Positions 12,920-32,750 of a stretch of DNA of 41,303 nucleotides are shown in pieces. Both the position numbers and the translations under genes were made by a program. The DNA is from a virus. A model generated the notes under the pieces. That model worked only from the letters and a program-made list of their open reading frames with translations, searched no databases and was not told where the DNA came from. The number at the start of each line of letters is the position of its first letter. The first letter of the stretch is position 1. The stretch is from positions 1 through 41,303 of IMG/VR virus record IMGVR_UViG_3300009169_000006, one strand, 5' to 3'.

Positions 12920-12944
12920 GGAAGAGCGTCGACGGGCGTCTTTC
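12920..12944 (+). promoter_or_regulatory. Leader element, divergent copy A (before 12958)
   Basis: Begins GGAAG and ends CTTTC, followed by TGAAAGGAAT and the ATG at 12958. It keeps the ends and position of the better copies, but the central hairpin is GACG-gg-CGTC instead of the usual arrangement, and TGACG is replaced by CGACG. This is the weakest of the seven copies. Confidence 0.4.
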
Positions 12945-12957
12945 TGAAAGGAATATC

Positions 12958-13782
12958 ATGGCTGGAATGAACAATCCATTACAAAACAGTCTAAAGCAGT
13001 TAGGAATAAACAATCCTCAACAACAACAAAGTCAATTACCATGGGCAAATGGTTTTCAGCCTTCATGGGAAGATAAAGCACTTGGTTGGTTAAATCCTGT
13101 TGGCGATGCTATTGGCGCTATTGGTGGTGGATTAGAAGATATATTTGGAGAAAGATTATTTGGAAAACCAGAACAATGGAATCAAAGATCTACACAAACG
13201 CCTATACAAAGACAATGGGCTGAACAACAGATGCAAAATTCTATGGATGCTCCAAAACCACAATGGGATCCATTAGAAAAATTCGTTAGGCAGAACTATC
13301 AACAGAAATCTATCCCATCATTAATGTCTCGTATTGGCAGATTAAACGGTATGAATACTGGTGCAGGACGGCAAATGATGGCGCAAGCTGATGTAGACTT
13401 TGAAAATCAATTAGGTGCAATGAAATCAGATTGGGAACGTGGCAACCGTCAAGATCTTAATAGAAATGCTATGACCGCATTTCAGCAACCAGCTTTTTAT
13501 GATGAACATCAGCAAAAACAAGAAGGAGCTGCATGGCCTATTATGATGGCAGCATTAAGTGGTGCTACTGGCGGGGGCGCAGGTATGGGAACAAATGCTA
13601 TCGCCGAATTCATTAAACAACTTATGCAACAACAAAACCAACAACCAACAGGTGAATCACAATATGGGAATTCATTCTCTATTCCTAATAAGCAAAATGA
13701 CAATTGGAACAATCCTAACAACTTATTAGCTTCGTTATATCAACGAAGACCTTCATTGATGCCTAATCCACAACCATTTTAA
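12958..13782 (+). CDS. Probable internal/ejection virion protein (274 aa, Gln/Asn-rich)
   Basis: A Gln/Asn/Trp-rich protein with a small Gly/Ile/Ala-rich patch near residues 45-62 (GDAIGAIGGGLEDIFGERLFG) and a second near 190-210 (AAWPIMMAALSGATGGGAGMG). The rest is helical and low complexity. Short amphipathic or membrane-active patches within otherwise polar helices, and position after the nozzle gene, are typical of internal proteins ejected with DNA in short-tailed phages. No specific family is recognised. Confidence 0.5.
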   Translation: MAGMNNPLQNSLKQLGINNPQQQQSQLPWANGFQPSWEDKALGWLNPVGDAIGAIGGGLEDIFGERLFGKPEQWNQRSTQTPIQRQWAEQQMQNSMDAPKPQWDPLEKFVRQNYQQKSIPSLMSRIGRLNGMNTGAGRQMMAQADVDFENQLGAMKSDWERGNRQDLNRNAMTAFQQPAFYDEHQQKQEGAAWPIMMAALSGATGGGAGMGTNAIAEFIKQLMQQQNQQPTGESQYGNSFSIPNKQNDNWNNPNNLLASLYQRRPSLMPNPQPF

Positions 13783-13791
13783 GGAGTTTTT

Positions 13792-14946
13792 ATGTTCGTT
13801 TATGAAAATAAGGGTGAATCAACACCAAATCCATTGACCAAGTATATTGATCAATTTAGCCAAATGATGCAACAAAAGTCTCAAATGTTATCTGAATTCA
13901 AGATAAACGAGATGATGAAACAGCTTCAAAAACAACGACAAATGCCAGCTTTAAAAGATATGTTTGGCGAAGAAAGAGGTCAAATGTATGGAGAACTTGA
14001 ACCTAATGCTCTTCGTGAAGCGATAAGAAATCAACAGAGAACACAAGGAAATCGAGCTTATGCTAATACTACTCAGCAAATGATTAATCGTTTGGTGAAT
14101 GGTAATAATGCACAAGGACAAGAAGGTGGTATTGAAGTTGACCCATCCATGAATGCATCAGAAATAAGAGATACTGGCAAGTTAGGCATGGATATATATA
14201 AAACAAATCAAAAGAATGAACGAGATTTAAAGCAACAACAACTTGCTACTGATACATTTTCAAATAAAAAAGATGAGCAAAAAGCGAAAAAACAATTAGA
14301 AAAACAAAAAGTATATAACAAAGACGCTCAACCATGGAAAGATTATCATACTAAGCGTGGTGGAGCACTTGACGATCTTTTTAAAGACGCATTAAAAGCA
14401 AAATCATTACTCAATGGCGGTACAATTAAAAATAATGGTTGGGCGATAACCAAGCAACTTATGCCTGCAAGTCACTATAATACAGATACCCAAGACTGGG
14501 AAGGTATAATGAAAAAAGTTGTAACCGATACAACTTTGGCACAAAAAGGTAATCCAACAAAGTATCGTCTTGAAATGACAGAAGCACAAAAACCTACCAT
14601 ATTTGATACTCCAGAAACACAACAACGCAAGTTAGATCGATATCTTAATCAAGTCGCTGAAATATTACTTGATAAGCGTATTGGTGAAGATATTATGGCA
14701 GAAAATGATGGCGAAGTTCCTAAAAACTTCTCTCAATTACGTTCTGAACGCCGAGATGAAATGCGTAGACAGGGCATTGATCCAATAGAAGAAGTGATGC
14801 AACGCCGTGGAGATCAAGGCGAAGAAGAAGAGTTTGACGATGCTGAGGTACTCGCACATCCAGAGAACTATGAAGAAGACCAAGAATATATAGATTCAAA
14901 TGATAAACATTATATTATTAAAAATGGTAAATGGATGGATAAATAA
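13792..14946 (+). CDS. Probable internal virion protein (384 aa, coiled-coil)
   Basis: Highly charged, Gln/Lys/Glu-rich, with repeated helical stretches (MMQQKSQMLSEFKINEMMKQL; DEQKAKKQLEKQKVY) and an acidic C-terminus with RRGDQGEEEEFDDAEV. The C-terminal end (EDQEYIDSNDKHYIIKNGKWMDK) looks like a small separate beta element. Ribosome-binding site AAGGAG. Tandem position between two other likely ejection proteins suggests the same complex; direct evidence for function is lacking. Confidence 0.5.
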   Translation: MFVYENKGESTPNPLTKYIDQFSQMMQQKSQMLSEFKINEMMKQLQKQRQMPALKDMFGEERGQMYGELEPNALREAIRNQQRTQGNRAYANTTQQMINRLVNGNNAQGQEGGIEVDPSMNASEIRDTGKLGMDIYKTNQKNERDLKQQQLATDTFSNKKDEQKAKKQLEKQKVYNKDAQPWKDYHTKRGGALDDLFKDALKAKSLLNGGTIKNNGWAITKQLMPASHYNTDTQDWEGIMKKVVTDTTLAQKGNPTKYRLEMTEAQKPTIFDTPETQQRKLDRYLNQVAEILLDKRIGEDIMAENDGEVPKNFSQLRSERRDEMRRQGIDPIEEVMQRRGDQGEEEEFDDAEVLAHPENYEEDQEYIDSNDKHYIIKNGKWMDK

Positions 14947-17003
14947 TGGGAAAATTCGTTAAAAAGGGTCCTGCACCCCAAGAATCTACAGGTAAATTCA
15001 TAGGACGAAATCTTAGCAAAGCTCCTGCATTATGGTATGAATCTGCACGTTCTGGATTAGGACTTGGAAATATTCTTGATATGGCTATACGTCAAACAGA
15101 ACCTGCAAAACAACAATATGCAGAACCAACTAACCAATTAGATGCTATAGGACAAGCAGTTAATAAACGATTTGGTGATGTGTTTAGCAATTTAAGATCT
15201 GGTGCAAGTAGGATTCTGCCAAGTACACAGAAGGCCAATGAAGAGATCTCTCATATACTACCTAAATCAATGACTGAACATAAACCTGAAGATTGGCTTA
15301 TGGAGTTATTGATAAATGAATTGCCAATGGCTGCTATGTCAGGAGGATTCTCTGGTGGCTTGAAAGGCCTAGGTAAATACTCTCTAGGTGCTGGTGCTAT
15401 GCATGCAGGAGGACACTTTGGCGGCGAACTTGGTGGCGCTGTAGGTTCAGAGCTTGGCAATGAAGAAGTAGGCCGATTATTAGGTGGATTGGCTGGTGGT
15501 GTTGGAGCTGGTATGTTAACACATAAAATACTACCTTCGCAGGTACTACCAGGAATGCAAGAAGAGTCTCAAAGAAAGTCATGGGAAGAACAAAAAAAGA
15601 TGTCTTACGAAGATTTCCAAGCACAATTAGCTAAAGAACATGAAGACTTCTTGAACAAACAGGAATATGACATTAAGTATCTTGAGAATATGACTGAACA
15701 AGAACGAGCCGATTTTAGAAATGAACAGTCATCAGAGTTAAAAGCTATACAAGAAGAACATCGACAACTCGTTAAAGAACTTGAAGATGAACATACTTCT
15801 GCAAGCCAAAAGCTACCTCAAGAAACAGAGGCTTTTAGAAAAGAAAAACAAGCCCGTATAAAAGCGCTTCAAAAGAGAAAATCTGATTATGACAAGAAGA
15901 TAAAAGAACATAAAGCTGTAGTTAAAGAATTTGGCGAAAAACATAGCAACTTTACAGGTCAAGAAGTAGGTGATGCTTCAGGAATCCTCGATACTATAGA
16001 TAAAATAAGAAGAGAACTCGGCGAAGGTATAACTAAGGCAGATAGAGATGAAATTGAAGAATTCATAGGTCAATTACAAGCATCAATTAAGGGAAAATAC
16101 ATGTCTCTTAAGACAGCTAAGAAGTTTCTTAAGAGAAAGAACGAGCGAGTTTTTCCATCAAAAACACCCAAAGAATTCAATACAGTTAGAGAGGTGTCAA
16201 ACACCTTAAAAGAAGAACTTAATAGATTATCTGAACCATTACATCAATTCATTTCAGATACAGCTAGTCCAGAACACGCTGAAGCCTTTCAAAAATACAA
16301 TGAATCTACACAGGCTTATAAGCAGATGGAAATGGAAAGACCAAATTTCAGAAGATCTGTTGATGAAGAAATAGGTCATGCAAGAGCAGATAAGTTCTCT
16401 GAAACTCGGAAAAATGCTCTTGAAAGGCAACAAAAACAGGCAGCAGATAAATTAGCTACTACTAAAGCCCAACATAAAAAAGAAGTTTCTGCTTTAGAAA
16501 AAAGGAAACCTGCTGGGACTCATGCGAAGGCTCTTGAAGAAGCAAGAACACGTAAGATAGATGATGCGGTTATTCAAGGTAAAATAACAGAACTTGAGAA
16601 ACAGACATGGGAAGGTCATAAGAAGAGCCAGATACGTAATGCATCTGACACTGAGAAGATCTTAAAGCATCTAGGTAAACTTACTACTAGTTGGGGATCA
16701 AGTGGCGCCTATGCAGCTTATGGTATCTATAAATCACTTGGTTTAATACCTAACGCAGCAGGAACTGCTTTAGTTAAAATTGGTACTAAAGCAGCACAAG
16801 AAATTGCACTAGCTACAAAGGTCCTTAAAGAGAATCCAGAACTGAGACAACCTTATGCGAAACTTCTTACTATGACTGCTAAAGAACAATTACCAGATGC
16901 TATTAGAATAGCTGATAGATTAGGTGAAGATCTTCAACGTAAAATAGAAGAACAAAAGAAAAAGAAAAAAGGTGGACGTTTTGTTAAGCGGGCATCTAAA
17001 TAA
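14946..17003 (+). CDS. Large probable ejection protein (685 aa) with Gly-rich hydrophobic segment
   Basis: Starts MGKFVKKGPAPQESTGKF. Residues about 130-205 are rich in Gly/Ala/Leu (GGFSGGLKGLGKYSLGAGAM; GGALGGL-like repeats ending GGVGAGMLTH), a pattern that can insert into membranes. It is followed by about 350 residues of strongly predicted coiled coil, then a second hydrophobic region near 590-620 and a basic end KKKKKGGRFVKR. This arrangement matches inner-core proteins that form a DNA conduit across the cell envelope. The start overlaps the previous stop (TAATG). Confidence 0.55.
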   Translation: MGKFVKKGPAPQESTGKFIGRNLSKAPALWYESARSGLGLGNILDMAIRQTEPAKQQYAEPTNQLDAIGQAVNKRFGDVFSNLRSGASRILPSTQKANEEISHILPKSMTEHKPEDWLMELLINELPMAAMSGGFSGGLKGLGKYSLGAGAMHAGGHFGGELGGAVGSELGNEEVGRLLGGLAGGVGAGMLTHKILPSQVLPGMQEESQRKSWEEQKKMSYEDFQAQLAKEHEDFLNKQEYDIKYLENMTEQERADFRNEQSSELKAIQEEHRQLVKELEDEHTSASQKLPQETEAFRKEKQARIKALQKRKSDYDKKIKEHKAVVKEFGEKHSNFTGQEVGDASGILDTIDKIRRELGEGITKADRDEIEEFIGQLQASIKGKYMSLKTAKKFLKRKNERVFPSKTPKEFNTVREVSNTLKEELNRLSEPLHQFISDTASPEHAEAFQKYNESTQAYKQMEMERPNFRRSVDEEIGHARADKFSETRKNALERQQKQAADKLATTKAQHKKEVSALEKRKPAGTHAKALEEARTRKIDDAVIQGKITELEKQTWEGHKKSQIRNASDTEKILKHLGKLTTSWGSSGAYAAYGIYKSLGLIPNAAGTALVKIGTKAAQEIALATKVLKENPELRQPYAKLLTMTAKEQLPDAIRIADRLGEDLQRKIEEQKKKKKGGRFVKRASK

Positions 17004-17050
17004 AAACCCCCCAACCCGCATCGATTGGAGGATCATAACATAAACCATTA

Positions 17051-17206
17051 CTATTTTAGCATACGCTTATCATTAAGCAATTTTAACGCTATTGCTTTCA
17101 ATACATATTCATTTATGGATGATCTTGTCATAGCAGAAATGATTTTTATTTCTCTGTGAAACTCTTCATTCATTCTAAGGCATATCTTCTTATCTTTTTT
17201 ATCCAT
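17051..17206 (-). CDS. Arc-like ribbon-helix-helix repressor (51 aa)
   Basis: I use the ATG at 17206, which has GGAG in front. The product MDKKDKKICLRMNEEFHREIK then helices ending NEYVLKAIALKLLND has the Arc/Mnt layout: a short beta strand (KICLRM), helix A (EEFHREIKIISAM), and helix B after a turn (SINEYVLKAIALKLL). Such proteins bind DNA as dimers through the strand. It is leftward in a rightward late block, so it may control the flanking transcripts. The full open frame runs further upstream to 17296, but no ribosome-binding site supports that. Confidence 0.7.
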   Translation of the reverse strand: MDKKDKKICLRMNEEFHREIKIISAMTRSSINEYVLKAIALKLLNDKRMLK

Positions 17207-17311
17207 GGTTCTCCTATAGGAAGCTATCATGCTATAAGCGTACCACAAATACATTGCCTTTAGCTTCTGCTTTTTTATCTGATTGTAGAGATACATTAAT
17301 ATCCTACAAAA

Positions 17312-17336
17312 GGAAGACTGAAAGTCTGACGTCTTC
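17312..17336 (+). promoter_or_regulatory. Leader element copy B (before 17348)
   Basis: GGAA, hairpin GACT-gaa-AGTC, TGACGT, CTTC; then AG and the Shine-Dalgarno AAGGAAG with the ATG two bases later. The outer GAAGAC/GTCTTC can also pair (6 bp), so two alternative folds exist. This is one of six good copies of the element. Confidence 0.65.
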
Positions 17337-17347
17337 AGAAGGAAGCC

Positions 17348-17530
17348 ATGGAAATCAAAGATATCGTCTCTATTACAATACCCAAAGGTACATTAACATA
17401 CTCATTCAATATCCCTGTTGGAGCAACTCTTGGAGAAGCGTTTGATGCTTGCTTTGAATGCCTTAACACAATATTGGATATGCAAAAGAAGGCTATTCAG
17501 AAACCAGAAGAAAAAGCAGGTGATGAATGA
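17348..17530 (+). CDS. Small protein (60 aa), unknown function
   Basis: MEIKDIVSITIPKGTLTYSF followed by VGATLGEAFDACFECLNTIL and a charged tail. Start chosen because leader copy B and AAGGAAG lie directly in front. It is coupled to the next gene by an ATGA overlap. Predicted as two strands and a long helix. Its place at the head of the adhesion module suggests a virion or chaperone role, but nothing specific is recognised. Confidence 0.55.
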   Translation: MEIKDIVSITIPKGTLTYSFNIPVGATLGEAFDACFECLNTILDMQKKAIQKPEEKAGDE

Positions 17531-17874
17531 GCTTACAAAATAAGGTCACACCACTAGCTCTACAGCTTATTGGAGCACCATTCACTGGAGCATGGCAGTT
17601 ACTATACCCAGGATTCGAACAACCTATATTCATGATTCGCATAATCAACGATTCAGATGTTGGATTACTTGTCAGTTATGACTCTGCTGATGCTGGCCAA
17701 GTTGAAAATGACTACGTAGCTGAAAATGACACTATCCAGATATATTTCCAAGCTAATGCTCAACCTAACTATGCACCTGCCAATTTAAGTCAAGGACGCA
17801 AAGTCTGGATTCGTAGTATAGGTGCTGGTGGTGCAGGTTTAGTAGCATGTACAGGTTATACGAGTTACAGGTGA
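17527..17874 (+). CDS. Small beta-rich virion protein, paralogue 1 of 3 (115 aa)
   Basis: Contains IRIINDSDVGLLVSYDSADAG, VENDYVAENDTIQIYF and RKVWIRSIGAGG near the end. The arrangement (strand, N-D/N-S, L-V-S-Y-D, then D-Y-x-A-x-N-D-T, then a W/V-x-x strand) recurs in the next two genes, so the three are duplicates. Composition is typical of surface or tail attachment proteins. Translationally coupled to the gene before it. Confidence 0.55.
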   Translation: MSLQNKVTPLALQLIGAPFTGAWQLLYPGFEQPIFMIRIINDSDVGLLVSYDSADAGQVENDYVAENDTIQIYFQANAQPNYAPANLSQGRKVWIRSIGAGGAGLVACTGYTSYR

Positions 17875-17878
17875 AATA

Positions 17879-18232: not shown

Positions 18233-18244
18233 TAAAGGAGCAAT

Positions 18245-19917: not shown

Positions 19918-19932
19918 TAGTTTAATTATAAA

Positions 19933-19959
19933 GGAAGTTCGTCAGAACTGACGTTCTTC
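19933..19959 (+). promoter_or_regulatory. Leader element copy C (before 19973)
   Basis: GGAA, hairpin GTTC-gtca-GAAC, TGACGTT, CTTC; then AAG and AAGGAAG before the ATG. The GAAC arm can pair with the upstream GTTC or with the GTTC just downstream, and CTTC can pair with GAAG on either side, so the Shine-Dalgarno could be exposed or masked. Confidence 0.65.
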
Positions 19960-19972
19960 AAGAAGGAAGAAA

Positions 19973-20524
19973 ATGCCTAAATTATACACAAAAAGAGTGG
20001 CGTACGGATTAACACCACCTAATATTAATATAGTAGAATCTCCAAAACAAGCGTTTAGTGATCCTACAGTTAATGATCGTTATGATGCAGGTCAATTATG
20101 GCTTAACCAGACTGATAATACTGCTTGGCTATTAGTATCATATACGGGTGGTATACCTATTTGGATCCAGATAGATAATTCGAACATCACTGGAGTAGCT
20201 TGGGTTATATCAGCGAATAATGCTATAGCAGCTGCAAATAACACTGGTTATATAGTAACTGGCAACCCACCGGCAATTACATTACCTGCAAATTCACCAG
20301 TTGGAACCATTATCCAAGTAGTTGGAAGAGGCGCAAATAACTGGCAAATACTTACAAATGCAGGACAACGCATTGTATTCAATGGTGTTACTAGTCTTGC
20401 AGGTGCTGGTGTTCGATTAGTAGCTACACATGCAGGTGATACATTAACACTTACTACAACAGTTGCAGACGTAGAATTTACCGTAATACAAACAAATGAC
20501 AACCTTAACCTTATCACTGTTTAA
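19973..20524 (+). CDS. Fibre-associated protein with shared C-terminal domain (183 aa)
   Basis: The N-terminal 75 residues include AGQLWLNQTDNTAWLLVSYTGG, a motif seen in fibre and collar proteins. The C-terminal 105 residues (WVISANNAIAAANNTGYIV ... LPANSPVGTIIQVVGRGANNWQI ... TNDNLNLITV) match the C-terminal domains of the next two genes: gap-free L-P-A-x-S-x-V-G, V-x-G-x-G-x-x-x-W-x-I and a final N-L-x-x-[IV]-x-V. It is likely a tip or cap domain that can be swapped between fibres. Confidence 0.6.
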   Translation: MPKLYTKRVAYGLTPPNINIVESPKQAFSDPTVNDRYDAGQLWLNQTDNTAWLLVSYTGGIPIWIQIDNSNITGVAWVISANNAIAAANNTGYIVTGNPPAITLPANSPVGTIIQVVGRGANNWQILTNAGQRIVFNGVTSLAGAGVRLVATHAGDTLTLTTTVADVEFTVIQTNDNLNLITV

Positions 20525-20550
20525 GGAAGCACATACGTGCTGACTTCTTC
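20525..20550 (+). promoter_or_regulatory. Leader element copy D (before 20565)
   Basis: GGAA, hairpin GCAC-atac-GTGC, TGACTT, CTTC; then AC and AAAGGAAT before the ATG at 20565. It begins within a base or two of the previous gene's stop, so it fills the whole gap between the two fibre genes. Confidence 0.65.
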
Positions 20551-22984: not shown

Positions 22985-23455
22985 ATGGCAACAAACAATG
23001 CGATTAACAACCCAAAGATCATGTTCTTTGCATATCTTAATGCATCGACTGGAGCGGTTACTGGTGACGCTACAGTATACTCAATAGCTTACGATCGAGT
23101 CTTATATGACTCAACTGCCAGCATGAACTTAGCTACTGGAGCATATCTGGTACCAAAAACAGGCAAATATTTTCTAACATTTACAACGCTTCTAGGTGGT
23201 CTAGCAGCTCATACATCAGCTAATTATTATATGTCAGTTGCTGGCGTTTTGGATTGGAATGGTGCCCTTATAAATCCAGGAGTTGTTGATCAAGCTGGTT
23301 TATTAAGTTTAACTGATGCGGCGATAGTTAATTTAACTGCTGGTCAATCCGTTATAGTGACAGGGAACGTAGCAGGCGGAGCTAAATCAGTTACCATACA
23401 ATCAGGCGGCGCAGCTAGTCCTCAATCATGGTTTTGCGGATTCTTAATTGATTAA
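22985..23455 (+). CDS. C1q-like small adhesin, paralogue 1 of 6 (156 aa)
   Basis: First of six tandem genes sharing the N-terminal octapeptide MATNNAIN and a C1q/TNF-like jelly-roll pattern: FFAYLNASTGAVTGD, an aromatic strand before TGKYFLTFTTLLGG, and a final AGGAKSVTIQSGG...WFCGFLI. The conserved tag is probably a docking peptide for the virion, while the body varies. Expected to be a trimeric surface adhesin; enzymatic motifs are absent. Ribosome-binding site AAAGGTG. Confidence 0.6.
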   Translation: MATNNAINNPKIMFFAYLNASTGAVTGDATVYSIAYDRVLYDSTASMNLATGAYLVPKTGKYFLTFTTLLGGLAAHTSANYYMSVAGVLDWNGALINPGVVDQAGLLSLTDAAIVNLTAGQSVIVTGNVAGGAKSVTIQSGGAASPQSWFCGFLID

Positions 23456-23464
23456 GGAGATATT

Positions 23465-23932
23465 ATGGCAACAAATAACGCAGTTAATTTTAAAAAACCA
23501 TTTCCATCGTTTTACGCGTATGCAAGTGCTGATGTGGCAAATGTAACTGGTGATGGTACAGTTGTGACTCTTCCTCTGAATAGTACATTACATAATGTTA
23601 CAACATCCTATAGCACGGCTACGTACACATTCACTGCCGATAGAACAGGCAAATTTTTAGTAGCATCGCAGCTATTTCTAGGTGAGCTTGTGGGTCATTC
23701 TTCTGTGGATTTCACTATAGTTACAACAGCTAGAAACTATGCTGTTACTGCAAATTTGACACCTATGGCAAGTGGCGCAACAACAGTATGCGGATTCCAA
23801 AACATAGCTCTGGTAGATATGACAGCAGGAGACACTTTGTATTTGACGGCTGCATGCGGTGGAGGTGGAAAAACGGTAGATCTTATAGGTCTAAAATATT
23901 ACTCATATTTATCATGTAGCTATATAGGTTAA
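23465..23932 (+). CDS. C1q-like small adhesin, paralogue 2 of 6 (155 aa)
   Basis: Starts MATNNAVNFKK, has FYAYASADVANVTGDGTV, DRTGKFLVASQLFLGEL and a C-terminal CGGGGKTVDLIGL. Same layout as the flanking paralogues, with AV in place of AI in the tag. It is separated from its neighbours by only 9 nt on each side, each gap carrying AAGGAG. Confidence 0.6.
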   Translation: MATNNAVNFKKPFPSFYAYASADVANVTGDGTVVTLPLNSTLHNVTTSYSTATYTFTADRTGKFLVASQLFLGELVGHSSVDFTIVTTARNYAVTANLTPMASGATTVCGFQNIALVDMTAGDTLYLTAACGGGGKTVDLIGLKYYSYLSCSYIG

Positions 23933-23941
23933 GGAGAAACC

Positions 23942-24412
23942 ATGGCAACAAACAATGCAATAAATCAGCATAAACCTATCCCTTTATTTTTTGCATATAT
24001 GGCTGCATCAACAGGAGCAGTCACAGGTGATGGGACAACTGTTAAGGTACCATACGATTCAACATTATTTAATGATGGAAGTTTCAACACAGCGACCTAT
24101 GAATTCATAGCACCAAGTAACGGTATATATTTATTGAATACTGGAATTATTGCTGATAATGCTAACGGCAAAACGTCTGCAGGGATTCAGTTTTATATAA
24201 ATGGCGTCCTTTTCAACGCATATGGCTGTAACCCTAATTTAATAACAGTAGGCGGATCATATAGTAAGAACGTTAACTGTATTGTTGAAATGACTGCTGC
24301 ACAATCAGCATACCTTATTTTTTATGTAGCAGGTGGCGCTAAAAACTGTGCAATTATTAGTGCAGGCGCTGCTAACCCAAGAACGTGGTTCTCAGCAACT
24401 CTAATAGGATGA
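23942..24412 (+). CDS. C1q-like small adhesin, paralogue 3 of 6 (156 aa)
   Basis: Starts MATNNAINQHK, has FFAYMAASTGAVTGDGTTV, a PSNGIYLLNTGII strand pair and AGGAKNCAIISAG near the end. The segment MAASTGAVTGDGT is closest to paralogue 1. Its TGA stop is one of few TGA stops in the window. Confidence 0.6.
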   Translation: MATNNAINQHKPIPLFFAYMAASTGAVTGDGTTVKVPYDSTLFNDGSFNTATYEFIAPSNGIYLLNTGIIADNANGKTSAGIQFYINGVLFNAYGCNPNLITVGGSYSKNVNCIVEMTAAQSAYLIFYVAGGAKNCAIISAGAANPRTWFSATLIG

Positions 24413-24414
24413 CT

Positions 24415-24900
24415 ATGGCAACAAATAACGCAATAAACCAAATCGGCGTGCTGCCTTCATTTATGGCTGTTCAAAATGCCGACCAAGCAAGCGTGACTGG
24501 TGATGGGAGTGTTTACGTACCACAATTTACTAATGTTGTTTATAATGCAACAAGTTCATTTGATGGAACTTCTACTTTTACTGCACCACTAACAGGCAAA
24601 TATTGTTTCGGTGTCCATTTTCAATTTACAAATGTAGCAGCTGGTATGACTATTGGATATTGTCAGTTAATTACTACATTAGCTACATATAATTTATTTT
24701 TTTTAAACCCAGGAACTATGAGAGCCGCTAACAATATACTTACAATACAAAATTCTATTATAGTGCCTATGACTGCTACTAATACAGCATCATTAAATAT
24801 TGCCTTTTTGAATGGTGCAAAAGCAGTAACTATACAAGGAGCAACAGCAGCGGCATCAAGAACTCCATTCTTCAGCGGTTATATGATTTCAGGAATTTAA
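24415..24900 (+). CDS. C1q-like small adhesin, paralogue 4 of 6 (161 aa)
   Basis: The start is set at the conserved MATNNAIN (24415), two bases after the previous stop, instead of an in-frame codon at 24385 inside the previous gene. It has FMAVQNADQASVTGDGSVY, LTGKYCFGVHFQF and FLNGAKAVTIQGATAA. It is the only copy without a clear AAGGAG in front, the nearest being AGGATG in the previous coding sequence. Confidence 0.6.
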   Translation: MATNNAINQIGVLPSFMAVQNADQASVTGDGSVYVPQFTNVVYNATSSFDGTSTFTAPLTGKYCFGVHFQFTNVAAGMTIGYCQLITTLATYNLFFLNPGTMRAANNILTIQNSIIVPMTATNTASLNIAFLNGAKAVTIQGATAAASRTPFFSGYMISGI

Positions 24901-24910
24901 CGGAGAAACT

Positions 24911-25384
24911 ATGGCAACAAATAATGCAATAAATTATAGACCAATATCATGGTTCGTTTACCCAAGTATAGACACCGACGATCAAACTGGTGATGGCACT
25001 GGGATAAGTCCTTTTTTTGATACGACTAAGTTTTTAATTGGTGGAGCTACTTTTTTTGGTCATCAAATTGGTGCGCCTGTTGCTGGATATTACATGATTA
25101 ATGCACAAGTTACGTTTGGAAATGTCGCAGCTCATACAGCAGCGAGCATCAATATATTGAATACAACAACGGGAGAACAATCAACTCCATGCGAATGTAA
25201 TCCGTCTGTTTTGAAAGATTCAAGTGATAAGTTCATGTTAAGCACACAGGCTGTTTTTTATTTAAATGTAGGTGATTTTATAGGTGTTACATGCGTTGTT
25301 AGTGGTGGAGCTAAAACGGTTGATTTATTGAGTGGTATCGCTAGTGAACCATTAACATGGTTTTCAGGGGCAATTTTAATATAA
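24911..25384 (+). CDS. C1q-like small adhesin, paralogue 5 of 6 (157 aa)
   Basis: Starts MATNNAINYRPI, has FVYPSIDTDDQTGDGTG, APVAGYYMINAQVTFGN and SGGAKTVDLLSGI before WFSGAILI. It fits the C1q-like strand order of the others but has diverged in the first strand. Ribosome-binding site CGGAGA. Confidence 0.6.
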   Translation: MATNNAINYRPISWFVYPSIDTDDQTGDGTGISPFFDTTKFLIGGATFFGHQIGAPVAGYYMINAQVTFGNVAAHTAASINILNTTTGEQSTPCECNPSVLKDSSDKFMLSTQAVFYLNVGDFIGVTCVVSGGAKTVDLLSGIASEPLTWFSGAILI

Positions 25385-25392
25385 GGGAAAAC

Positions 25393-25863
25393 ATGGCAAC
25401 AAATAATGCAATTAATTTAGCAAAGCCTTATCCATTATTTTTTGGATATTACAGTGCAACAACAGCAGCGATTACTGGTGATGGTACGCTGTTTCCGCTT
25501 GCTTTTGATACAGACAAATTCGATCTTGGCGGCAATCTTCTTAACGGAGTCGTGACGATACCTACGACTGGCAAATACTATATATATGTAACTACTCAAT
25601 TAGGCTCTTTGGCTGTTGGGCATACATCATGCTTGCTGCAAGTAGGTTTAGCAGGTAACTATTTGGATGGTGGTTATGTCAACATAGGAGCAATACGTGA
25701 TTCAGCTGATACAGCATCAGTTTCAGTATGTGGTCTTATGGATTTTACAGCAGCAGATATCGTGCAAGCATCAATAACGGTGACAGGAGCTGCTAAGGCA
25801 GTAACAGTTATCGGCGCAGCTACATATAGCTCGTACATATGCGGTTATTTGATTAATAGTTAA
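25393..25863 (+). CDS. C1q-like small adhesin, paralogue 6 of 6 (156 aa)
   Basis: Start set at the MATNNAIN codon at 25393 after AAGGGAAA; a longer in-frame start at 25357 lies inside the previous gene. It has FFGYYSATTAAITGDGTLF, TTGKYYIYVTTQLGSL and TGAAKAVTVIGAAT, and ends YICGYLINS. It is the last gene of the rightward late block and is followed by a hairpin terminator facing the other way. Confidence 0.6.
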   Translation: MATNNAINLAKPYPLFFGYYSATTAAITGDGTLFPLAFDTDKFDLGGNLLNGVVTIPTTGKYYIYVTTQLGSLAVGHTSCLLQVGLAGNYLDGGYVNIGAIRDSADTASVSVCGLMDFTAADIVQASITVTGAAKAVTVIGAATYSSYICGYLINS

Positions 25864-25866
25864 AAA

Positions 25867-25895: not shown

Positions 25896-25924
25896 AAAAA
25901 AAGGAGAGTAGTAATGAAGCCTCG

Positions 25925-27554: not shown

Positions 27555-27556
27555 AT

Positions 27557-27886
27557 CTACCTTTCGAAGTCAGATATTGATTTGTTTTTATGATAATACT
27601 TAAATGCCTTTAATAATAGATCTATGTCTTTATAGAGTAGAGAGACGTTTATATTGTTCTCTTTACAGATATTAACTACTGTTTTAGTACCCATTACATA
27701 CTCTTTAACTACTCTATCTGCTTTGGTTACTATGCCTGCTGCATGCTCATCATATGCTATAAGGTAATCGTCTATTACCTTTAGTCGTTCTTGAAGTGTG
27801 AAAGCAGTATAGAAGTATTCCATATCATCGAATTGTTTTCTGGTTATCTTGCTACGTTTACCAGGACCCGAACGATGATTACCCAT
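27557..27886 (-). CDS. Small protein with possible HTH (109 aa)
   Basis: Basic N-terminus MGNHRSGPGKRSKITRKQF, then helices. Near residues 68-88, VNICKENNINVSLLYKDIDLLL has the spacing of a helix-turn-helix (I-C-x5-N-V-S-x-L-Y). DNA binding is possible. The start overlaps the upstream stop by one base (TAATG). No family is named. Confidence 0.55.
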   Translation of the reverse strand: MGNHRSGPGKRSKITRKQFDDMEYFYTAFTLQERLKVIDDYLIAYDEHAAGIVTKADRVVKEYVMGTKTVVNICKENNINVSLLYKDIDLLLKAFKYYHKNKSISDFER

Positions 27887-28317
27887 TAGTTTTTCTCTAT
27901 TTTATGGATTAACACATCATCTGTTATATTCTTACACATGTAGTTTATAGCGAAGAGTTTCTTTATATTTTGATTGAACTGCGAGAAAAGATATTTTTTC
28001 TCTTCTAATGGGAGGTTATAAAAAGCCTCCAAAGATATATTGCATTTGTCCTTGAGAGCAGCATCCAAATAATAATCTGGATCTACTTTGAATGTGAAAT
28101 AGAACCATGGCAATACGTCCCATAAACCAACTGAAAGATTGATTATAAGATCTAATGGCTCTGATATTTCACTATCTTTAAGGAATTGGTTTATCTCATC
28201 TTGAGGTTTATCTTTGTTGGCTGCAACGTAATCGGACGCTGCTTGTATATATTCATTCGCTGTTTTTATGTACTTATCTGATTGCATGATAAACAACTGG
28301 CTTCTTGTTCTCTTCAC
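27886..28317 (-). CDS. Hypothetical protein (143 aa), first gene of the leftward ERF operon
   Basis: The start is GTG at 28317 with GGGAG seven bases upstream; a downstream in-frame ATG (28287) lacks a ribosome-binding site. All-helical, acidic protein (KTANEYIQAASDYVAAN; ISEPLDLIINLSVGLWDVLPW). No recognised family. It is first behind a clear leftward promoter, so it is probably an early gene. Confidence 0.55.
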   Translation of the reverse strand: MKRTRSQLFIMQSDKYIKTANEYIQAASDYVAANKDKPQDEINQFLKDSEISEPLDLIINLSVGLWDVLPWFYFTFKVDPDYYLDAALKDKCNISLEAFYNLPLEEKKYLFSQFNQNIKKLFAINYMCKNITDDVLIHKIEKN

Positions 28318-28359
28318 TTATAGACTCCCTGTAAATAGAAACAAATAAATACTATTAAC

Positions 28360-28388
28360 AGTCTACAGGATACACAATAAAAAGTCAA
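28360..28388 (-). promoter_or_regulatory. Leftward sigma70-like promoter for the ERF operon
   Basis: On the minus strand: TTGACT (28388-28383), 17-base spacer, TAGACT (28365-28360). It lies back to back with the rightward promoter at 28396. The -10 box is part of an imperfect inverted repeat with TAGACT at 28321-28326, a possible operator. Confidence 0.6.
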
Positions 28389-28395
28389 ATATATC

Positions 28396-28424
28396 TTGCA
28401 CTTATTTATAAACCCACGTATACT
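28396..28424 (+). promoter_or_regulatory. Rightward sigma70-like promoter for the early gene cluster
   Basis: TTGCAC (28396-28401), 17-base spacer, TATACT (28419-28424). The start of transcription would be near 28431, placing leader element copy E inside the 5' untranslated region. The two -35 boxes of this divergent pair are only 7 bp apart, so one regulator could act on both. Confidence 0.65.
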
Positions 28425-28458
28425 TAAATATGGTAAGATAAAACACTTTAACATATAA

Positions 28459-28486
28459 GGAAGCACGTCTGTGCTGACGATGCTTC
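28459..28486 (+). promoter_or_regulatory. Leader element copy E (before 28499)
   Basis: GGAA, hairpin GCAC-gtct-GTGC, TGACGATG, CTTC; then ATAGAGAG and the ATG at 28499. It begins about 28 nt after the predicted transcription start, which supports action as RNA. This copy stands before an early regulator gene, unlike the late copies B, C and D. Confidence 0.65.
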
Positions 28487-28498
28487 ATAGAGAGACCT

Positions 28499-28741
28499 AT
28501 GAAAGAAATGACAATGCTTGAAATATCAGAGAATACTGAGCTATTCAAATCCATGTTGGATAAAATGATTATAGCTGATCCTGATAAGGCTTTATGCAGA
28601 GTAGCCGATGAGATTGGCATAAGTGTCATCACACTGAATAAGTTCTTATTCACAAAAGATGTTCACTCAAGAAAGACTATGTGGAAGTTATATAACTACC
28701 TTCGAAAGGTTGAACGTGATAATACATTGCAATCTGTGTAA
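28499..28741 (+). CDS. Putative HTH regulator (80 aa)
   Basis: Residues about 30-58 (DKALCRVADEIGISVITLNKFLF) read as a helix-turn-helix: A-x-x-I-G-I-S-x-x-T-L-N-x-F-L, as in small Cro/XRE-type proteins. The C-terminal part (TMWKLYNYLRKVE) would be the last helix. It is the first rightward gene after the divergent promoter pair, the classic place for an autoregulating switch protein. The specific family is not certain. Confidence 0.65.
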   Translation: MKEMTMLEISENTELFKSMLDKMIIADPDKALCRVADEIGISVITLNKFLFTKDVHSRKTMWKLYNYLRKVERDNTLQSV

Positions 28742-28931
28742 AGGCTGCCAAGACGAAATCAGAGCCAAGAGAGTGATATCCAAGAGAAACAAAGAGGGAC
28801 AACTTGTTCACTTTGGATATTGCTATACATGTTGGAAAGAATTAATGGAATCTTGCGGCCCTTTTTGGGAAGATATTGACTTAGATTCTAGATTCAACAT
28901 AAAGGATAAAGATGCCAATAACAAATGCTAA
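28716..28931 (+). CDS. Small zinc-finger-like protein (71 aa)
   Basis: The start is uncertain. I prefer GTG 28716 with GAAAGG six bases upstream; the longer in-frame ATG (28659) lies deep inside the previous gene and has no ribosome-binding site. The product has CNLCKGC near its N-terminus and CYTC about 30 residues later, a C-x2-C...C-x2-C metal-binding layout. Its last bases overlap the next start. Function unknown. Confidence 0.5.
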   Translation: MIIHCNLCKGCQDEIRAKRVISKRNKEGQLVHFGYCYTCWKELMESCGPFWEDIDLDSRFNIKDKDANNKC

Positions 28932-29109
28932 AATACCTGATGGATACAAATGCTTCAAATGCGGTATCGATATAACCGATGATAATGGTGTAATGTTTAA
29001 TTGGCCTCATCCATTACAGACTTCTAAGCCAAGTTGCCTTTGCAAGGTTTGTAAAGATGAATATATAGTTAAACGAGATATATTAAATAACGAATACTTT
29101 CCCGATTAA
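28912..29109 (+). CDS. Small zinc-finger-like protein (65 aa)
   Basis: MPITNAKIPDGYKCFKCGID then a C-terminal CLCKVCKDEY: two C-x2-C pairs about 28 residues apart, a small treble-clef or ribbon. AAAGGATAAAG is the ribosome-binding site. It has the same cysteine layout as the previous and the 30852 products, so the cluster encodes at least three such proteins. They may alter host transcription or nucleases, but no function is shown. Confidence 0.55.
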   Translation: MPITNAKIPDGYKCFKCGIDITDDNGVMFNWPHPLQTSKPSCLCKVCKDEYIVKRDILNNEYFPD

Positions 29110-29118
29110 GGTAATAAT

Positions 29119-29805
29119 ATGAACTTAAAGTTTTTGCTTTTTTGCGTATCATTTTCGTTGAGTGCTTGCGAAACACCAAACTATTGTATAGAACGAACAT
29201 CTAGATCTCTACAAAGGAATAACTCACCACAAATTGGGTCATTAACTGTCATAACAGGCCCAATGTACTCAGGAAAGACAGCTAGACTTATAGATTATAT
29301 TAAGTTGGCTAAGTTATCTGGCAAGAAAGTTGAAGTCTACTCTCACGCATTAGACTTTAGAAAAGAGAACTCGCTATCATCAAGAGCATATCCTACAGAG
29401 CGTATGGAAGCATTTAAGACCTGCGATGCGCGAGATATTCTTAAAGACTATTATCGTGGTGACTTTAACTGTGTGGCTATTGATGAAGCCCAGTTCTTTT
29501 CAACTCATTTAGCGCACTATATTAAATTGATGGTAGATTGCCGTGCTACGATATATGTTTCAGGACTTGATACTAACTATAGGGGGGAGCCATTCAGTGA
29601 GACCATGGGCAAATTATGCCAGATGGCTGACCTAGTAGTAAAGTTAACTGCTGTATGTGCTGTATGCGGCGGTGATGCTACATTAACACAACGGCTTATT
29701 AACGGAATACCTGCTGCTCTTAATGATGAACTGGTAGTTGTTGAGGGAACATGTGACGTGATTAAATACGAACCACGTTGCCGAAAGTGCCATGTGATAG
29801 AATGA
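29119..29805 (+). CDS. tdk: Thymidine kinase (type II) with an N-terminal lipoprotein-like signal
   Basis: It phosphorylates thymidine to dTMP with ATP. Walker A is GPMYSGKT (residues 47-54), followed by the Walker B/acid VAIDEAQFF, the lasso region GLDTNYRGEPF and a zinc site CAVCGG...CRKC. The kinase domain begins at about residue 40. The first 39 residues (MNLKFLLFCVSFSLSACETP onward) are unusual: Lys, a hydrophobic core, then lipobox LSAC with Cys17. The ATG has AAGGT seven bases upstream. A second ribosome-binding-like AAAGGAAT stands at about 29214, just before the kinase domain, but no ATG/GTG/TTG follows in frame. Confidence 0.85.
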   Translation: MNLKFLLFCVSFSLSACETPNYCIERTSRSLQRNNSPQIGSLTVITGPMYSGKTARLIDYIKLAKLSGKKVEVYSHALDFRKENSLSSRAYPTERMEAFKTCDARDILKDYYRGDFNCVAIDEAQFFSTHLAHYIKLMVDCRATIYVSGLDTNYRGEPFSETMGKLCQMADLVVKLTAVCAVCGGDATLTQRLINGIPAALNDELVVVEGTCDVIKYEPRCRKCHVIE

Positions 29806-30302
29806 ATGACGAACTATATTTCCATGGCTCTTCTTCTGGTAATCCTGGACCTTCAGCGGCTGGATATTTCATAAATTCAGATTACTTGTTTCGCCCTGAT
29901 GCTGCTTATATAGGTGAATCAACAGCTCCCTTTGCTCAACATATTGCGCTTGTTCTTGGTTTATTAGACTATATTCAGTTCTTTCGATATAAGAAAGATA
30001 AACTCCATATATTTATAGAAAATGGAAATAAGTCTCGTTTATTGAAAACAAAGAAATATGATCTAGCCCTCGCTTGTGATGCATCAGAACGAGTTAGGTA
30101 TAATCTATACAATATGGAATTCTTTCTATTAAGCCAGATACAATACGAAGTTGAAATAGCAACCGAAGAAGACATGCAAGGTGTTAAGCAATTATCACGT
30201 AACGCAATAGTATCCAGGGAAAAGATGGACTCATGGTTTGAAGAATCGTTTAAAGAGTATGGTGTCCAATATATGGACTTTGAAAGAATAAGAAATGACT
30301 GA
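29802..30302 (+). CDS. RNase H-fold protein, probably catalytically inactive (166 aa)
   Basis: The N-terminus LYFHGSSSGNPGPSAAGYFI is the RNase HI first-strand signature (x-F-D-G-x-x-x-G-N-P-G-P), but the catalytic Asp is His8. The second acid, in the usual A-E-Y-x-A-L helix, is replaced (FAQHIALVLGLL, Gln46). The D-S of the fourth strand reads E-N-G. All visible catalytic acids are therefore lost while the fold pattern is kept. The start ATG overlaps the thymidine kinase stop. It could be a nucleic-acid binder or decoy; no activity is predicted. Confidence 0.65.
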   Translation: MNDELYFHGSSSGNPGPSAAGYFINSDYLFRPDAAYIGESTAPFAQHIALVLGLLDYIQFFRYKKDKLHIFIENGNKSRLLKTKKYDLALACDASERVRYNLYNMEFFLLSQIQYEVEIATEEDMQGVKQLSRNAIVSREKMDSWFEESFKEYGVQYMDFERIRND

Positions 30303-30504
30303 CGAACAAGGCAACAGGCTTATCAAGGCAGTATTATTTGTTTCATCTGAACTTGAAAAACACAATAAATATATGGAAACCATTACAGAAAATGGTGATA
30401 TATTATTCAACCGACTTGAAGAAATAGAAAAATCGTTGAATAATATAGGTCGTCAAATTAATCAATTAATGTGCGTTTTAGGTAAAAGGATAAAAAATGA
30501 TTGA
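30295..30504 (+). CDS. Small coiled-coil protein (69 aa)
   Basis: MTDEQGNRLIKAVLFVSSEL then heptad-like NGDILFNRLEEIEKSLNNIGRQINQL. It overlaps the previous gene by 8 nt and the next by 8 nt. Its composition resembles the next product (N-terminal helix then I/L heptads). Function unknown; oligomerisation is likely. Confidence 0.5.
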   Translation: MTDEQGNRLIKAVLFVSSELEKHNKYMETITENGDILFNRLEEIEKSLNNIGRQINQLMCVLGKRIKND

Positions 30505-30655
30505 TGATAACAAAATGTATATCATGCTATCAAACATAGCAGACGCATTGCGGTTAATGAATGAAAATATTGTTATGATAAAGGAGCAATCAAATTCAAT
30601 AGAAACCATAACAGTCGATATATCAACCAAAGTAACAAACCAGATCAAGGACTAA
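30497..30655 (+). CDS. Very small helical protein (52 aa)
   Basis: MIDDNKMYIMLSNIADALRL followed by MNENIVMIKEQSNSI and a C-terminal VTNQIKD. AAAAGGATAAAAA precedes the ATG, which overlaps the end of the previous gene. Helical, with heptad spacing of Ile/Leu/Met. A real gene is suggested by the tight overlaps on both sides; function unknown. Confidence 0.45.
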   Translation: MIDDNKMYIMLSNIADALRLMNENIVMIKEQSNSIETITVDISTKVTNQIKD

Positions 30656-30656
30656 A

Positions 30657-30800
30657 TTGGAAAAAACAGACGGTTTTTCAGTTATATTAGTACCAATAAT
30701 AGCACTGCTTACAATATATGCTTATTACTGGATAGGCTTAAAATTTATCCATGTAATAGGATCAGAAGTAAGAGATACAGTAAAGGTATATAAGAGTTAA
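30657..30800 (+). CDS. Single-membrane-span small protein (47 aa), holin candidate
   Basis: TTG start at 30657, one base after the previous stop, with AAGGA five bases upstream. The product MEKTDGFSVILVPIIALLTI continues YAYYWIGLKF and then a charged tail ending VKVYKS. One membrane segment covers residues about 8-28, with a short N-terminus outside the span. Small single-span proteins can be holins or holin-like regulators, and no other holin is visible. The assignment is inference. Confidence 0.4.
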   Translation: MEKTDGFSVILVPIIALLTIYAYYWIGLKFIHVIGSEVRDTVKVYKS

Positions 30801-30832
30801 CATAATACTAATTATCGGACATAGGAGCATTT

Positions 30833-30871
30833 ATGCCTAAAGAGCGAGGCAATGGATATAATAGAACTTAA
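30833..30871 (+). CDS. Twelve-residue leader ORF overlapping the next start
   Basis: ATG at 30833 with a strong TAGGAG five bases upstream opens a 12-codon frame (MPKERGNGYNRT) that ends inside the next gene. The zinc-protein start at 30852 lies within it and has only a weak site of its own (GAGCGAGG). Translation of the short frame may deliver ribosomes to the downstream start. Confidence 0.3.
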   Translation: MPKERGNGYNRT

Positions 30872-31256
30872 ATTAGAAAGCGTAAACTGTTTTGCATGTG
30901 AACAATTACTACCAACAATAAAAGGTAAATGCTTCAAGTACGAGATAAGAAAAGGCACTGAAACCATTTACTTATGTCAGAAGTGTGATAGTTGCCTTAT
31001 CAATGATGAAGCATTCTATGTTGATATGTGGTTTGATACCCATGATATAAAAAAGCACCAGGAGAACGGCAAATCGTGCTGTTTGTGTAAGCAGGAAATA
31101 CCAAAAGACTTCTTTGGAGGTTTGTCTTGCCATCCGTTTGAGATACACAAAGTGTTTTGTGAGAAATGCGGTAAGACCTTTTCAAAAGCAACGCATGAAT
31201 ATATGACTGCATGGTTAAAAGAAAATGAGGTAGCCACTTGTAACAATGCCATTTAG
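30852..31256 (+). CDS. Protein with two zinc-ribbon-like cysteine clusters (134 aa)
   Basis: CFAC (residues 13-16) pairs with CQKCDSC (about 42-48), and CCLC (about 76-79) pairs with CEKC (about 103-106). The two halves have similar length, suggesting a duplicated zinc ribbon. No catalytic motif. It belongs to the rightward early cluster together with two other Cys-x2-Cys small proteins. Host-takeover proteins often look like this, but the function is unknown. Confidence 0.55.
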   Translation: MDIIELKLESVNCFACEQLLPTIKGKCFKYEIRKGTETIYLCQKCDSCLINDEAFYVDMWFDTHDIKKHQENGKSCCLCKQEIPKDFFGGLSCHPFEIHKVFCEKCGKTFSKATHEYMTAWLKENEVATCNNAI

Positions 31257-31310
31257 GTGTATATTGGCTTCAGTATGATTATTACAACTGCTTTTTGAAA
31301 GGCGACTTCG

Positions 31311-31439
31311 ATGAAATACTTCTGCTCTCTTATTGCTGTATTAGCAATTGTCACTACACTTTCCTCCCTAGCAATGGATAGTACAACTCTTGATCAAACA
31401 ACAACAACTACGAGTGGATCAACTGCGAATAGAAAGTAA
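31311..31439 (+). CDS. Small secreted Thr-rich peptide (42 aa)
   Basis: ATG at 31311 with GAAAGG eight bases upstream. The product begins MKYFCSLIAVLAIVTTLSSL, a typical Sec signal with Lys2, a hydrophobic core and a likely cleavage after SLA. The mature part is about 21 residues (MDSTTLDQTTTTTSGS then TANRK), polar and Thr-rich. It is followed by an intrinsic terminator. Possible roles are lysis, superinfection exclusion or envelope interaction; none is shown. Confidence 0.5.
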   Translation: MKYFCSLIAVLAIVTTLSSLAMDSTTLDQTTTTTSGSTANRK

Positions 31440-31466
31440 AATCTCTATTCAATCGATAAAATATAG

Positions 31467-31495
31467 AACGCCGACTAAATGTCGGCGTTTCTTTT
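31467..31495. terminator. Bidirectional-type intrinsic terminator between convergent genes
   Basis: AACGCCGAC-taaat-GTCGGCGTT (9-bp stem, 5-nt loop) followed by TCTTTT on the plus strand; the minus strand is followed by TTCTATATTTT. It lies exactly between the rightward early cluster and the leftward gene ending at 31494. Confidence 0.7.
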
Positions 31496-31709
31496 ACTGC
31501 TGTAAAACATCTTCTAGAACTATATCAGGCGGGATATCGTCTACTAACTCAAAATGCATATCTGCTTTAACCATGGCTTGTAGCTCATTGATCTTAAACA
31601 GAATCTCTTTGCGTTGCTCTTCACCTTTTAAATAAAGATCTCGCACAACAAATAAAATCAAAGTGTTTAACATTATTAATATACATAGTAGTATCATCAT
31701 TAGCTTCAC
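31494..31709 (-). CDS. N-terminally membrane-anchored small protein (71 aa), spanin-like topology
   Basis: MKLMMILLCILIMLNTLILF forms one membrane span, followed by a basic-to-charged helix (RDLYLKGEEQRKEILFKINEL) and an acidic end. One N-terminal anchor plus a periplasmic coiled coil is the topology of i-spanins, which act in the last lysis step in Gram-negative hosts; the protein is short for that family. A holin-regulator role is also possible. The function is inferred from topology only. Confidence 0.5.
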   Translation of the reverse strand: MKLMMILLCILIMLNTLILFVVRDLYLKGEEQRKEILFKINELQAMVKADMHFELVDDIPPDIVLEDVLQQ

Positions 31710-31719
31710 TTCTACAGTC

Positions 31720-32121
31720 CTAGTAAGATGTTGCTATATATTTATATACTTCCAGGTTATCCAATATATGTTTTGCTTTTCCAATGGCTTTTTCAGGTAT
31801 AAGTCTAAGCATAGCATCCGATGCAGTTGATTTGTTTTCAGCACACCATCTTGCAAACTGATAACTAATATAGAATAGTGTTGAATTTCGACTATAAGAC
31901 TTTAAAGACATTATTGGCACATCTCTGGATGGAAATAACATAATCATTAACCCATACATATTTGCATCCATATTAGTTAATATCCATAAACTTTCATCGA
32001 CTTCAGAGAAAATGAACACTTCTTTATGATAAGTACCAACGGCTATAGCTTTTTTATGTTCAGTATTCTTTTTAGTTTCTCCAGAGCTATAATCTGCTTC
32101 AGAGAACCAACTTATTTCCAT
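31720..32121 (-). CDS. Hypothetical protein (133 aa)
   Basis: MEISWFSEADYSSGETKKNT, then beta-rich middle (AVGTYHKEVFIFSEVDESLW) and helical C-terminus (ASDAMLRLIPEKAIGKAKHIL). Its start overlaps the stop of the upstream gene by one base (TAATG). No family is recognised. It lies in a leftward three-gene cluster behind the promoter at 32562. Confidence 0.5.
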   Translation of the reverse strand: MEISWFSEADYSSGETKKNTEHKKAIAVGTYHKEVFIFSEVDESLWILTNMDANMYGLMIMLFPSRDVPIMSLKSYSRNSTLFYISYQFARWCAENKSTASDAMLRLIPEKAIGKAKHILDNLEVYKYIATSY

Positions 32122-32507
32122 TATTCGCCTTTCATTTGTTGGAATTTTTCACGATCTTTTTTTATTATCTCTTCAAATTCTTCGACGAAATCCATGATAT
32201 GTCTAGAGAATATTATTCTGTCTTCAATTTTGAACTCTACTAATGGTTTGCATATTACGCTTACTGGATCACAATTCTCAGCATAATCATATTGCTCTAT
32301 TTCACCTACAAGACGAAATCTTTTGAAACATTGCTTCCAACATATCCAATATTTCTTTTGTCCTTCAGAGTGCACAAACACATCTATCTCTCTACTGTAG
32401 TTAACTCGCTCAAGAATTACTTCGAGTTTCTGTATCCTTTCGGTTATTTCTTTGAGTGTTGCGTGAAGTTTATCAGCTTCGTCTAGTAATGAATTGAAGT
32501 TATCCAT
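32121..32507 (-). CDS. Hypothetical protein with N-terminal coiled coil (128 aa)
   Basis: The N-terminal 40 residues are heptad-like (LLDEADKLHATLKEI; TERIQKLEVILERV), followed by a compact region with YWICWKQCFKRFRLVGEIEQY and a helical acidic end. The ribosome-binding site GAAAGG stands about 6 nt before the ATG. First gene of its leftward cluster; function unknown. Confidence 0.5.
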   Translation of the reverse strand: MDNFNSLLDEADKLHATLKEITERIQKLEVILERVNYSREIDVFVHSEGQKKYWICWKQCFKRFRLVGEIEQYDYAENCDPVSVICKPLVEFKIEDRIIFSRHIMDFVEEFEEIIKKDREKFQQMKGE

Positions 32508-32561
32508 AAAACCTTTCGTAGGCAGTTAGCCATATAATGTTATTAAGTAATCACTAATCAT

Positions 32562-32590
32562 AATATAACACACATAATTAAAGAAAGCAA
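32562..32590 (-). promoter_or_regulatory. Leftward sigma70-like promoter for the 32507-31494 cluster
   Basis: On the minus strand: TTGCTT (32590-32585), a 17-base spacer, TATATT (32567-32562). The leader to the start at 32507 would be about 47 nt and contains GAAAGG just before the ATG. Confidence 0.6.
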
Positions 32591-32679
32591 GAGATACTTT
32601 ACAAGTTATTTAATATTATGTAGTCTTACGATGTATTGATTGATAGTTTAATAGTGGGATAAGCGATAAAAAAACCTGT

Positions 32680-32706
32680 GAAGCATCGTCAGCCCGTTGG
32701 GCTTCC
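32680..32706 (-). promoter_or_regulatory. Leader element copy F (minus strand)
   Basis: Read on the minus strand: GGAA, hairpin GCCC-aac-GGGC, TGACGATG, CTTC, then ACAGG and seven T. No gene start follows. With the T-run, this copy plus the inverted copy G could end leftward transcription. It is the inverted partner of copy G across a 17-base spacer. Confidence 0.65.
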
Positions 32707-32723
32707 GAAAGCTGCAAACAAGC

Positions 32724-32750
32724 GGAAGGGCGAAGCCCTGACGACGCTTC
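32724..32750 (+). promoter_or_regulatory. Leader element copy G (plus strand)
   Basis: GGAA, hairpin GGGC-gaa-GCCC, TGACGACG, CTTC. Unlike copies A-E it is not followed by a gene: after GTAGGCGTTACTGG comes ATG directly followed by TAA, a start-stop pair at about 32765-32770. Copies F and G can pair over 12 of 13 bp (GAAGC.TCGTCAG with CTGACGA.GCTTC), giving a cruciform-like structure. Confidence 0.65.

Follow-up and report, generated by a model that had tools for sequence, protein, structure and literature searches.

A covarying hairpin repeated before translation starts in one podovirus genome, a likely leader RNA element

The window analysed here is the entire record of an uncultured, small podovirus, 41,303 bases in length. 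Its termini carry identical direct repeats of 123 nt (positions 1–123 and 41181–41303), so that the genome is in all likelihood complete, and the ends fall within the portal gene. The portal is of the P22 type (PF16510), and further proteins were matched as terminase, major head protein, ERF-type annealing proteins, thymidine kinase and primase. Between the virion genes and a tail-spike-like gene lies a gene for an Arc/HicB-like ribbon-helix-helix protein (17051–17206, minus strand; PHROG 582, PF05534), an order that we take to recall the immI region of P22. Relatives of the portal (L249 and L250, 52–53%) reside on MAG contigs labelled Chlamydiia and Methylococcaceae, labels that give a hint of the hosts of this phage group.

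On the plus strand, positions 22985–25863 hold about six tandem paralogous genes of 155–171 aa each, several of which have the common start ATGGCAACAAA. The first of them has a weak match to the C1q domain (PF00386), and related runs are present in a relative (L251/L285). A separate plus-strand ORF (29778–30302), for which no Pfam or PHROG match was found, begins like RNase HI (GSSSGNPGPSAAGYF), yet carries His at the place of the expected first catalytic Asp.

The preliminary description of this DNA had claimed six clear copies of a short hairpin element, and all six were verified in exact form at their coordinates and on their strands. Read by part, the consensus is GGAA, G-N3, a loop of 3–4 nt, N3-C, TGAC, N2–4 and CTTC, for a total of approximately 25–28 nt. 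The copies and the features associated with them are as follows:

17312–17336, plus strand: copy, GGAA GACT GAA AGTC TGAC GT CTTC; 11 nt before ATG 17348
19933–19959, plus strand: copy, GGAA GTTC GTCA GAAC TGAC GTT CTTC; 13 nt before ATG 19973; nearly palindromic
20525–20550, plus strand: copy, GGAA GCAC ATAC GTGC TGAC TT CTTC; 14 nt before ATG 20565 (tail-spike-like gene)
28459–28486, plus strand: copy, GGAA GCAC GTCT GTGC TGAC GATG CTTC; 12 nt before ATG 28499
32724–32750, plus strand: copy, GGAA GGGC GAA GCCC TGAC GACG CTTC; intergenic, no adjacent ORF start
32680–32706, minus strand: copy, GGAA GCCC AAC GGGC TGAC GATG CTTC; inverted partner of 32724; intergenic
3083–3110, plus strand: slightly diverged seventh copy, GGAAGGCC-AAGC-GGCC-TAAC-GTGC-CTTA; 11 nt before ATG 3122
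12920–12944, plus strand: relative by position only, a hairpin that starts with GGAAG and whose 3′ arm is TCTTTC, ahead of ATG 12958; TGAC absent; 7.3 bits
32664–32766, both strands: inverted pair of copies, which on either strand can fold as one large branched hairpin; energies of −38.8 and −39.5 kcal/mol, with z of −3.3 and −4.2

Hairpins composed of GGAA, a 4 bp stem, a loop of 3 or 4 nt and TGAC were observed six times, against a mean of 0.05 in dinucleotide shuffles; when CTTC is added, the figures are six and zero. To avoid reliance on a motif picked post hoc, hairpins were also counted for all 65,536 possible pairs of 4+4 flanking nucleotides. GGAA/TGAC, with its reverse complement, was the sole significant flank pair in the window (corrected E of 2e-5), and the same flank-pair scan of 19 related genomes gave no hairpins flanked in this way. 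As had been proposed, the stem sequence changes while pairing is kept: 36 of 36 cells pair, all of them Watson-Crick, and in three stem pairs both partners vary. Every copy begins its stem with G-C, and the following three positions show 4, 4 and 2 pair types. The covariation score is 0.667, compared with 0.144 after shuffling and no more than 0.156 with a slid partner. The repeated covarying hairpin is a real feature of this genome. A copy number far above chance, together with the loss of covariation on sliding, counts in favour of an RNA element, whereas the fact that none of the 24 stem cells is a G-U pair suits DNA as well as RNA and counts against it.

A covariance model (R1) was built from the six exact copies and run on the window, where its match at 3081–3108 (17.8 bits) is the seventh copy, which has TAAC for TGAC and CTTA for CTTC. 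If at most one flank mismatch is allowed, this copy is the sole extra match, apart from 19933 itself, which as a near-palindrome also matches on its reverse strand. It provides independent support, because its spacing to the ATG matches that of the other copies although spacing is absent from R1. A weak copy had been reported at 12920 as well; its position and its hairpin stand, the TGAC does not. This leader resembles the element by position and by having a hairpin only, and is at best a putative member.

Distances of 11, 13, 14 and 12 nt separate the ends of the four exact leader copies from an ATG, and all four copies are on the sense strand. Only 0.8% of genome positions lie at such a distance from any ORF start, which corresponds to a probability of approximately 6e-8 for four of six copies. 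Inclusion of the 3083 copy brings the gene-proximal copies to five, each on the sense strand, and a distance of 11–14 nt in this orientation is expected of a translation-initiation element and so argues for a leader RNA. Both early-type and late genes are represented, as suggested earlier, with copies before virion genes and before an early-type gene (ATG 28499 is that of the first gene of a rightward, non-structural operon). Two operon-internal copies touch the stop codon of the preceding gene: that at 3083 overlaps the stop of ORF 2592–3101, and that at 20525 begins immediately past the stop of ORF 19973–20524. Such copies fit a promoter poorly. A gene start follows four of the six exact copies; none follows the pair at 32680–32750, which lies at least 150 nt from any ORF start, with the exception of an ATG-TAA located 14 nt after the plus copy. 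The location of this pair counts against the leader RNA reading.

The members of the pair are arranged head-to-head between the divergently oriented ORFs 32507 (minus) and 32903 (plus). Past the large hairpin that they form, a run of seven T residues is present on the minus strand only; the minus strand after the 32680–32706 copy reads ACAGGTTTTTTT. Just to the right of the pair is a strong leftward terminator (32826–32850, minus strand; 11 bp stem, T8) in an intergenic region that has no evident leftward gene to its right, and a small leftward RNA is possible. No T run was found downstream of the leader copies, and a terminator scan spanning 17312, 19933 and 20525 listed no plus-strand terminators; as hairpins without a following T run, the leader copies were no longer considered as intrinsic terminators. 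Hairpins are also present in several other gene gaps of this phage. A scan for sigma-70 promoters gave matches that were not above those in shuffled sequences.

GGAA and TGAC can pair with each other as a G-C, two G-A mismatches and an A-U, which yields one helix with a tandem G-A step. The 4 bp stem originally described is therefore correct as to its pairing, but the helix is longer than this. The tandem-GA hairpin is the minimum-energy fold of the isolated element in five of the seven copies, which counts for an RNA element; for 19933 and 28459 a form in which GAAG pairs with CTTC is predicted to be better, and this counts against the leader RNA reading. Tandem G-A/A-G pairs beside a helix are reminiscent of a kink-turn, but on inspection of the sequence there is no 3 nt bulge by the G-A pairs and the helix is continuous. 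With GGAA and TGAC opposed without a bulge in six of six copies, the kink-turn was rejected. A CsrA-type site was likewise dropped, because the Shine-Dalgarno sequence of 28499 lacks GGA.

The view that this is no named RNA family was upheld, in that an Rfam cmscan of the whole window (E up to 5) matched none of the copies. IMG/VR was scanned with degenerate patterns, two of them specific and with their matches listed in full, and no second carrier appeared among the matches listed; few of these preserve the stem, each on a contig of its own, and they mostly look like chance, lacking a start codon at the right distance. A search with a covariance model, which the preliminary description had advised, gave the seventh copy within the window, but among related loci and virus records it yielded no carriers: 80 portal-relative loci, 42 whole virus records and two MAGs contained no copies by regular expression or covariance model. 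None was found either in the 274 genomes from the class of one relative-bearing MAG, in a scan run without a positive control. Queries with the primase and with the 13792 and 18559 proteins returned no relatives or weak ones. Among full-length relatives the closest is G313 (loci L285/L286); it shares ORF 19973 (38%), 20565 (46%), 22316 (60%) and thymidine kinase (41%), and its leaders orthologous to 19973 and 20565 carry plain Shine-Dalgarno sequences. No matching hairpin was present in the orthologous leaders of relatives for genes 3122, 12958, 17348, 19973 and 20565, and a search of the literature on phage leader hairpins gave no matching element. At the available sampling, the element is private to this phage lineage and known from one genome.

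The leader RNA interpretation of the element is likely. More specifically, we give an even chance to the proposal that it is a lineage-private 5′-leader RNA that coordinates several genes, probably via a phage-encoded factor. As proposed, the cis-acting RNA would reside in 5′ leaders and intercistronic gaps and would form a 5 bp helix (A-G-N3/N3-C-U) with a variable loop of 3–4 nt, extended by the tandem G-A/A-G mismatch and a closing G-C; the helix would be followed by 2–4 nt, CTTC and then the Shine-Dalgarno sequence. Fixed flanks, a free but paired stem and a single ATG spacing suggest that the shape of an RNA is read by a factor at translation initiation, and a G-A module that stays fixed while stem and loop vary freely would let a protein or other ligand read this shape plus a few bases. 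We infer that RNA is the acting molecule and that it has a trans factor. By binding the hairpin, this phage-encoded factor would jointly set translation initiation, or 5′-end processing or stability, for at least five target genes: one in the head region, a small one behind the Arc-like repressor, two tail genes, and the gene that heads the early-type operon. The presumed effect on translation could be repression or activation.

If the factor is encoded by the phage and has dedicated sites, a private occurrence is what would be expected. Among the phage proteins, none was recognized as RNA-binding. Three small Cys-rich, zinc-finger-like ORFs on the plus strand (28659–28931, 28912–29109 and 30852–31256) belong to the operon that the 28459 copy heads and are candidate factors by position only, with no family match in support.

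The main rival to the leader RNA reading is a role at the level of DNA, in which the copies would be promoter-like or hairpin-promoter sites, in double- or single-stranded DNA, for a phage-specific polymerase or factor. Transcripts would then start just before the Shine-Dalgarno sequence, and the inverted pair would represent divergent promoters. Stems that are exclusively Watson-Crick, the head-to-head pair between divergent ORFs and a private occurrence like that of phage-specific promoters all agree with this explanation, which we nevertheless judge unlikely. No polymerase was seen, the largest ORF in the window being of 845 aa, and none was matched among the scanned proteins; a check for an N4-type hairpin promoter polymerase (PF00940) gave no match, its control being equally silent. 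In addition, a role in translation agrees better with the operon-internal copies that touch stop codons and with the narrow range of distances to the ATG, and variability in loop length and in the spacer before CTTC is seldom tolerated by DNA-binding proteins.

Passive protection of the message would require no trans factor, as a 5′ or intercistronic hairpin could stabilize or insulate a transcript by blocking nucleases or upstream structure. Stable small hairpins do precede these genes, as they occupy other gene gaps, but pairing alone would suffice for such a function, and the invariant GGAAG/CTGAC and CTTC would be left unexplained; we consider this improbable.

A switch had also been put forward. 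In the form considered here, dependent on a ligand or stage, pairing of the 5′ GAAG with CTTC would expose the Shine-Dalgarno sequence, and formation of the tandem-GA hairpin would leave CTTC available to sequester that sequence. Both GAAG and CTTC are retained in six of six copies, the predicted best fold is the GAAG/CTTC form in 19933 and 28459 and the tandem-GA form in the others, and CTTC can pair with the Shine-Dalgarno sequence in 17312 and 19933. However, the mean Shine-Dalgarno accessibility of genes with the element (0.57) was like that of other genes (0.47; p = 0.27). When CTTC was held single-stranded, by constraint of pairing with the sequences left unaltered, accessibility clearly increased in only one of six leaders (19973, from 0.66 to 0.94). 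The Shine-Dalgarno sequence of 28499 (GAGAG) barely pairs with CTTC, and complementarity of this kind is weak evidence, since any CTTC pairs with any purine-rich Shine-Dalgarno sequence. These calculations do not support the switch, and we regard such a mechanism as quite improbable. Finally, a dispersed mobile or selfish palindrome (REP- or MITE-like) inserted by chance near Shine-Dalgarno sites is very improbable: a BIME-like inverted pair would fit, as would the lack of the element in the corresponding leaders of the nearest relative of full length, but stems and loops differ while flanks and pairing are kept, unlike recent duplicates, the gene-proximal copies are all sense-strand at one distance, and no transposase or RAYT was found among the scanned proteins (which include part of the small ORFs), although mobilization in trans is possible.

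Several known systems resemble the proposed leader RNA in part. Com of phage Mu is a small zinc-finger protein that acts on the mom leader hairpin, its one target; the Cys-rich ORFs described here are linked to the element by position only and have no family match to Com. In lambda, short RNA hairpins (nut boxB) serve N antitermination at more than one place in the genome, whereas here no boxA was identified, there is no conserved GNRA-like loop, and the sites lie at the Shine-Dalgarno sequence. Phage translational operators (T4/RB69 gene 43, gene 32 and R17/MS2 coat) are likewise RNA hairpins near the ribosome-binding site that are read by a phage protein; for our element such a reader is presumed. 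Those operators are mostly single autoregulatory sites with conserved loops, whereas the element described here has seven copies, in which the flanks are conserved and the loops vary. The T4/RB69 gene 43 operator, for example, has the conserved loop bases UAAC (PMC3014915). Inhibitory leader structures near the Shine-Dalgarno sequence are carried by T4 genes e, soc, 49 and I-TevI (PMC3014915). In these the helix itself hides the Shine-Dalgarno sequence or AUG, whereas the hairpin described here leaves both outside and accessibility is not reduced.

Leader hairpins are already known in phages, and what is unusual here is their use with multiple genes. A bolder reading, which we offer tentatively as it is rather unlikely, is that of a private post-transcriptional regulon in which one tandem-GA hairpin code, read by a dedicated phage factor, governs early-type and late genes, and in which the inverted pair gives rise to an RNA that acts as a decoy or in antisense towards this same factor or these leaders. 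To our knowledge, the timing of phage gene expression is nearly always explained by promoters, and such a regulon, if true, would parallel the private promoters of other phages. Elements confined to one genome are missed by family-wide comparative RNA discovery, but covariation within a genome can find them. For a small podovirus, a multi-gene RNA leader code that spans structural and non-structural genes would amount to a post-transcriptional regulon, and it would yield a new compact RNA-protein pair.
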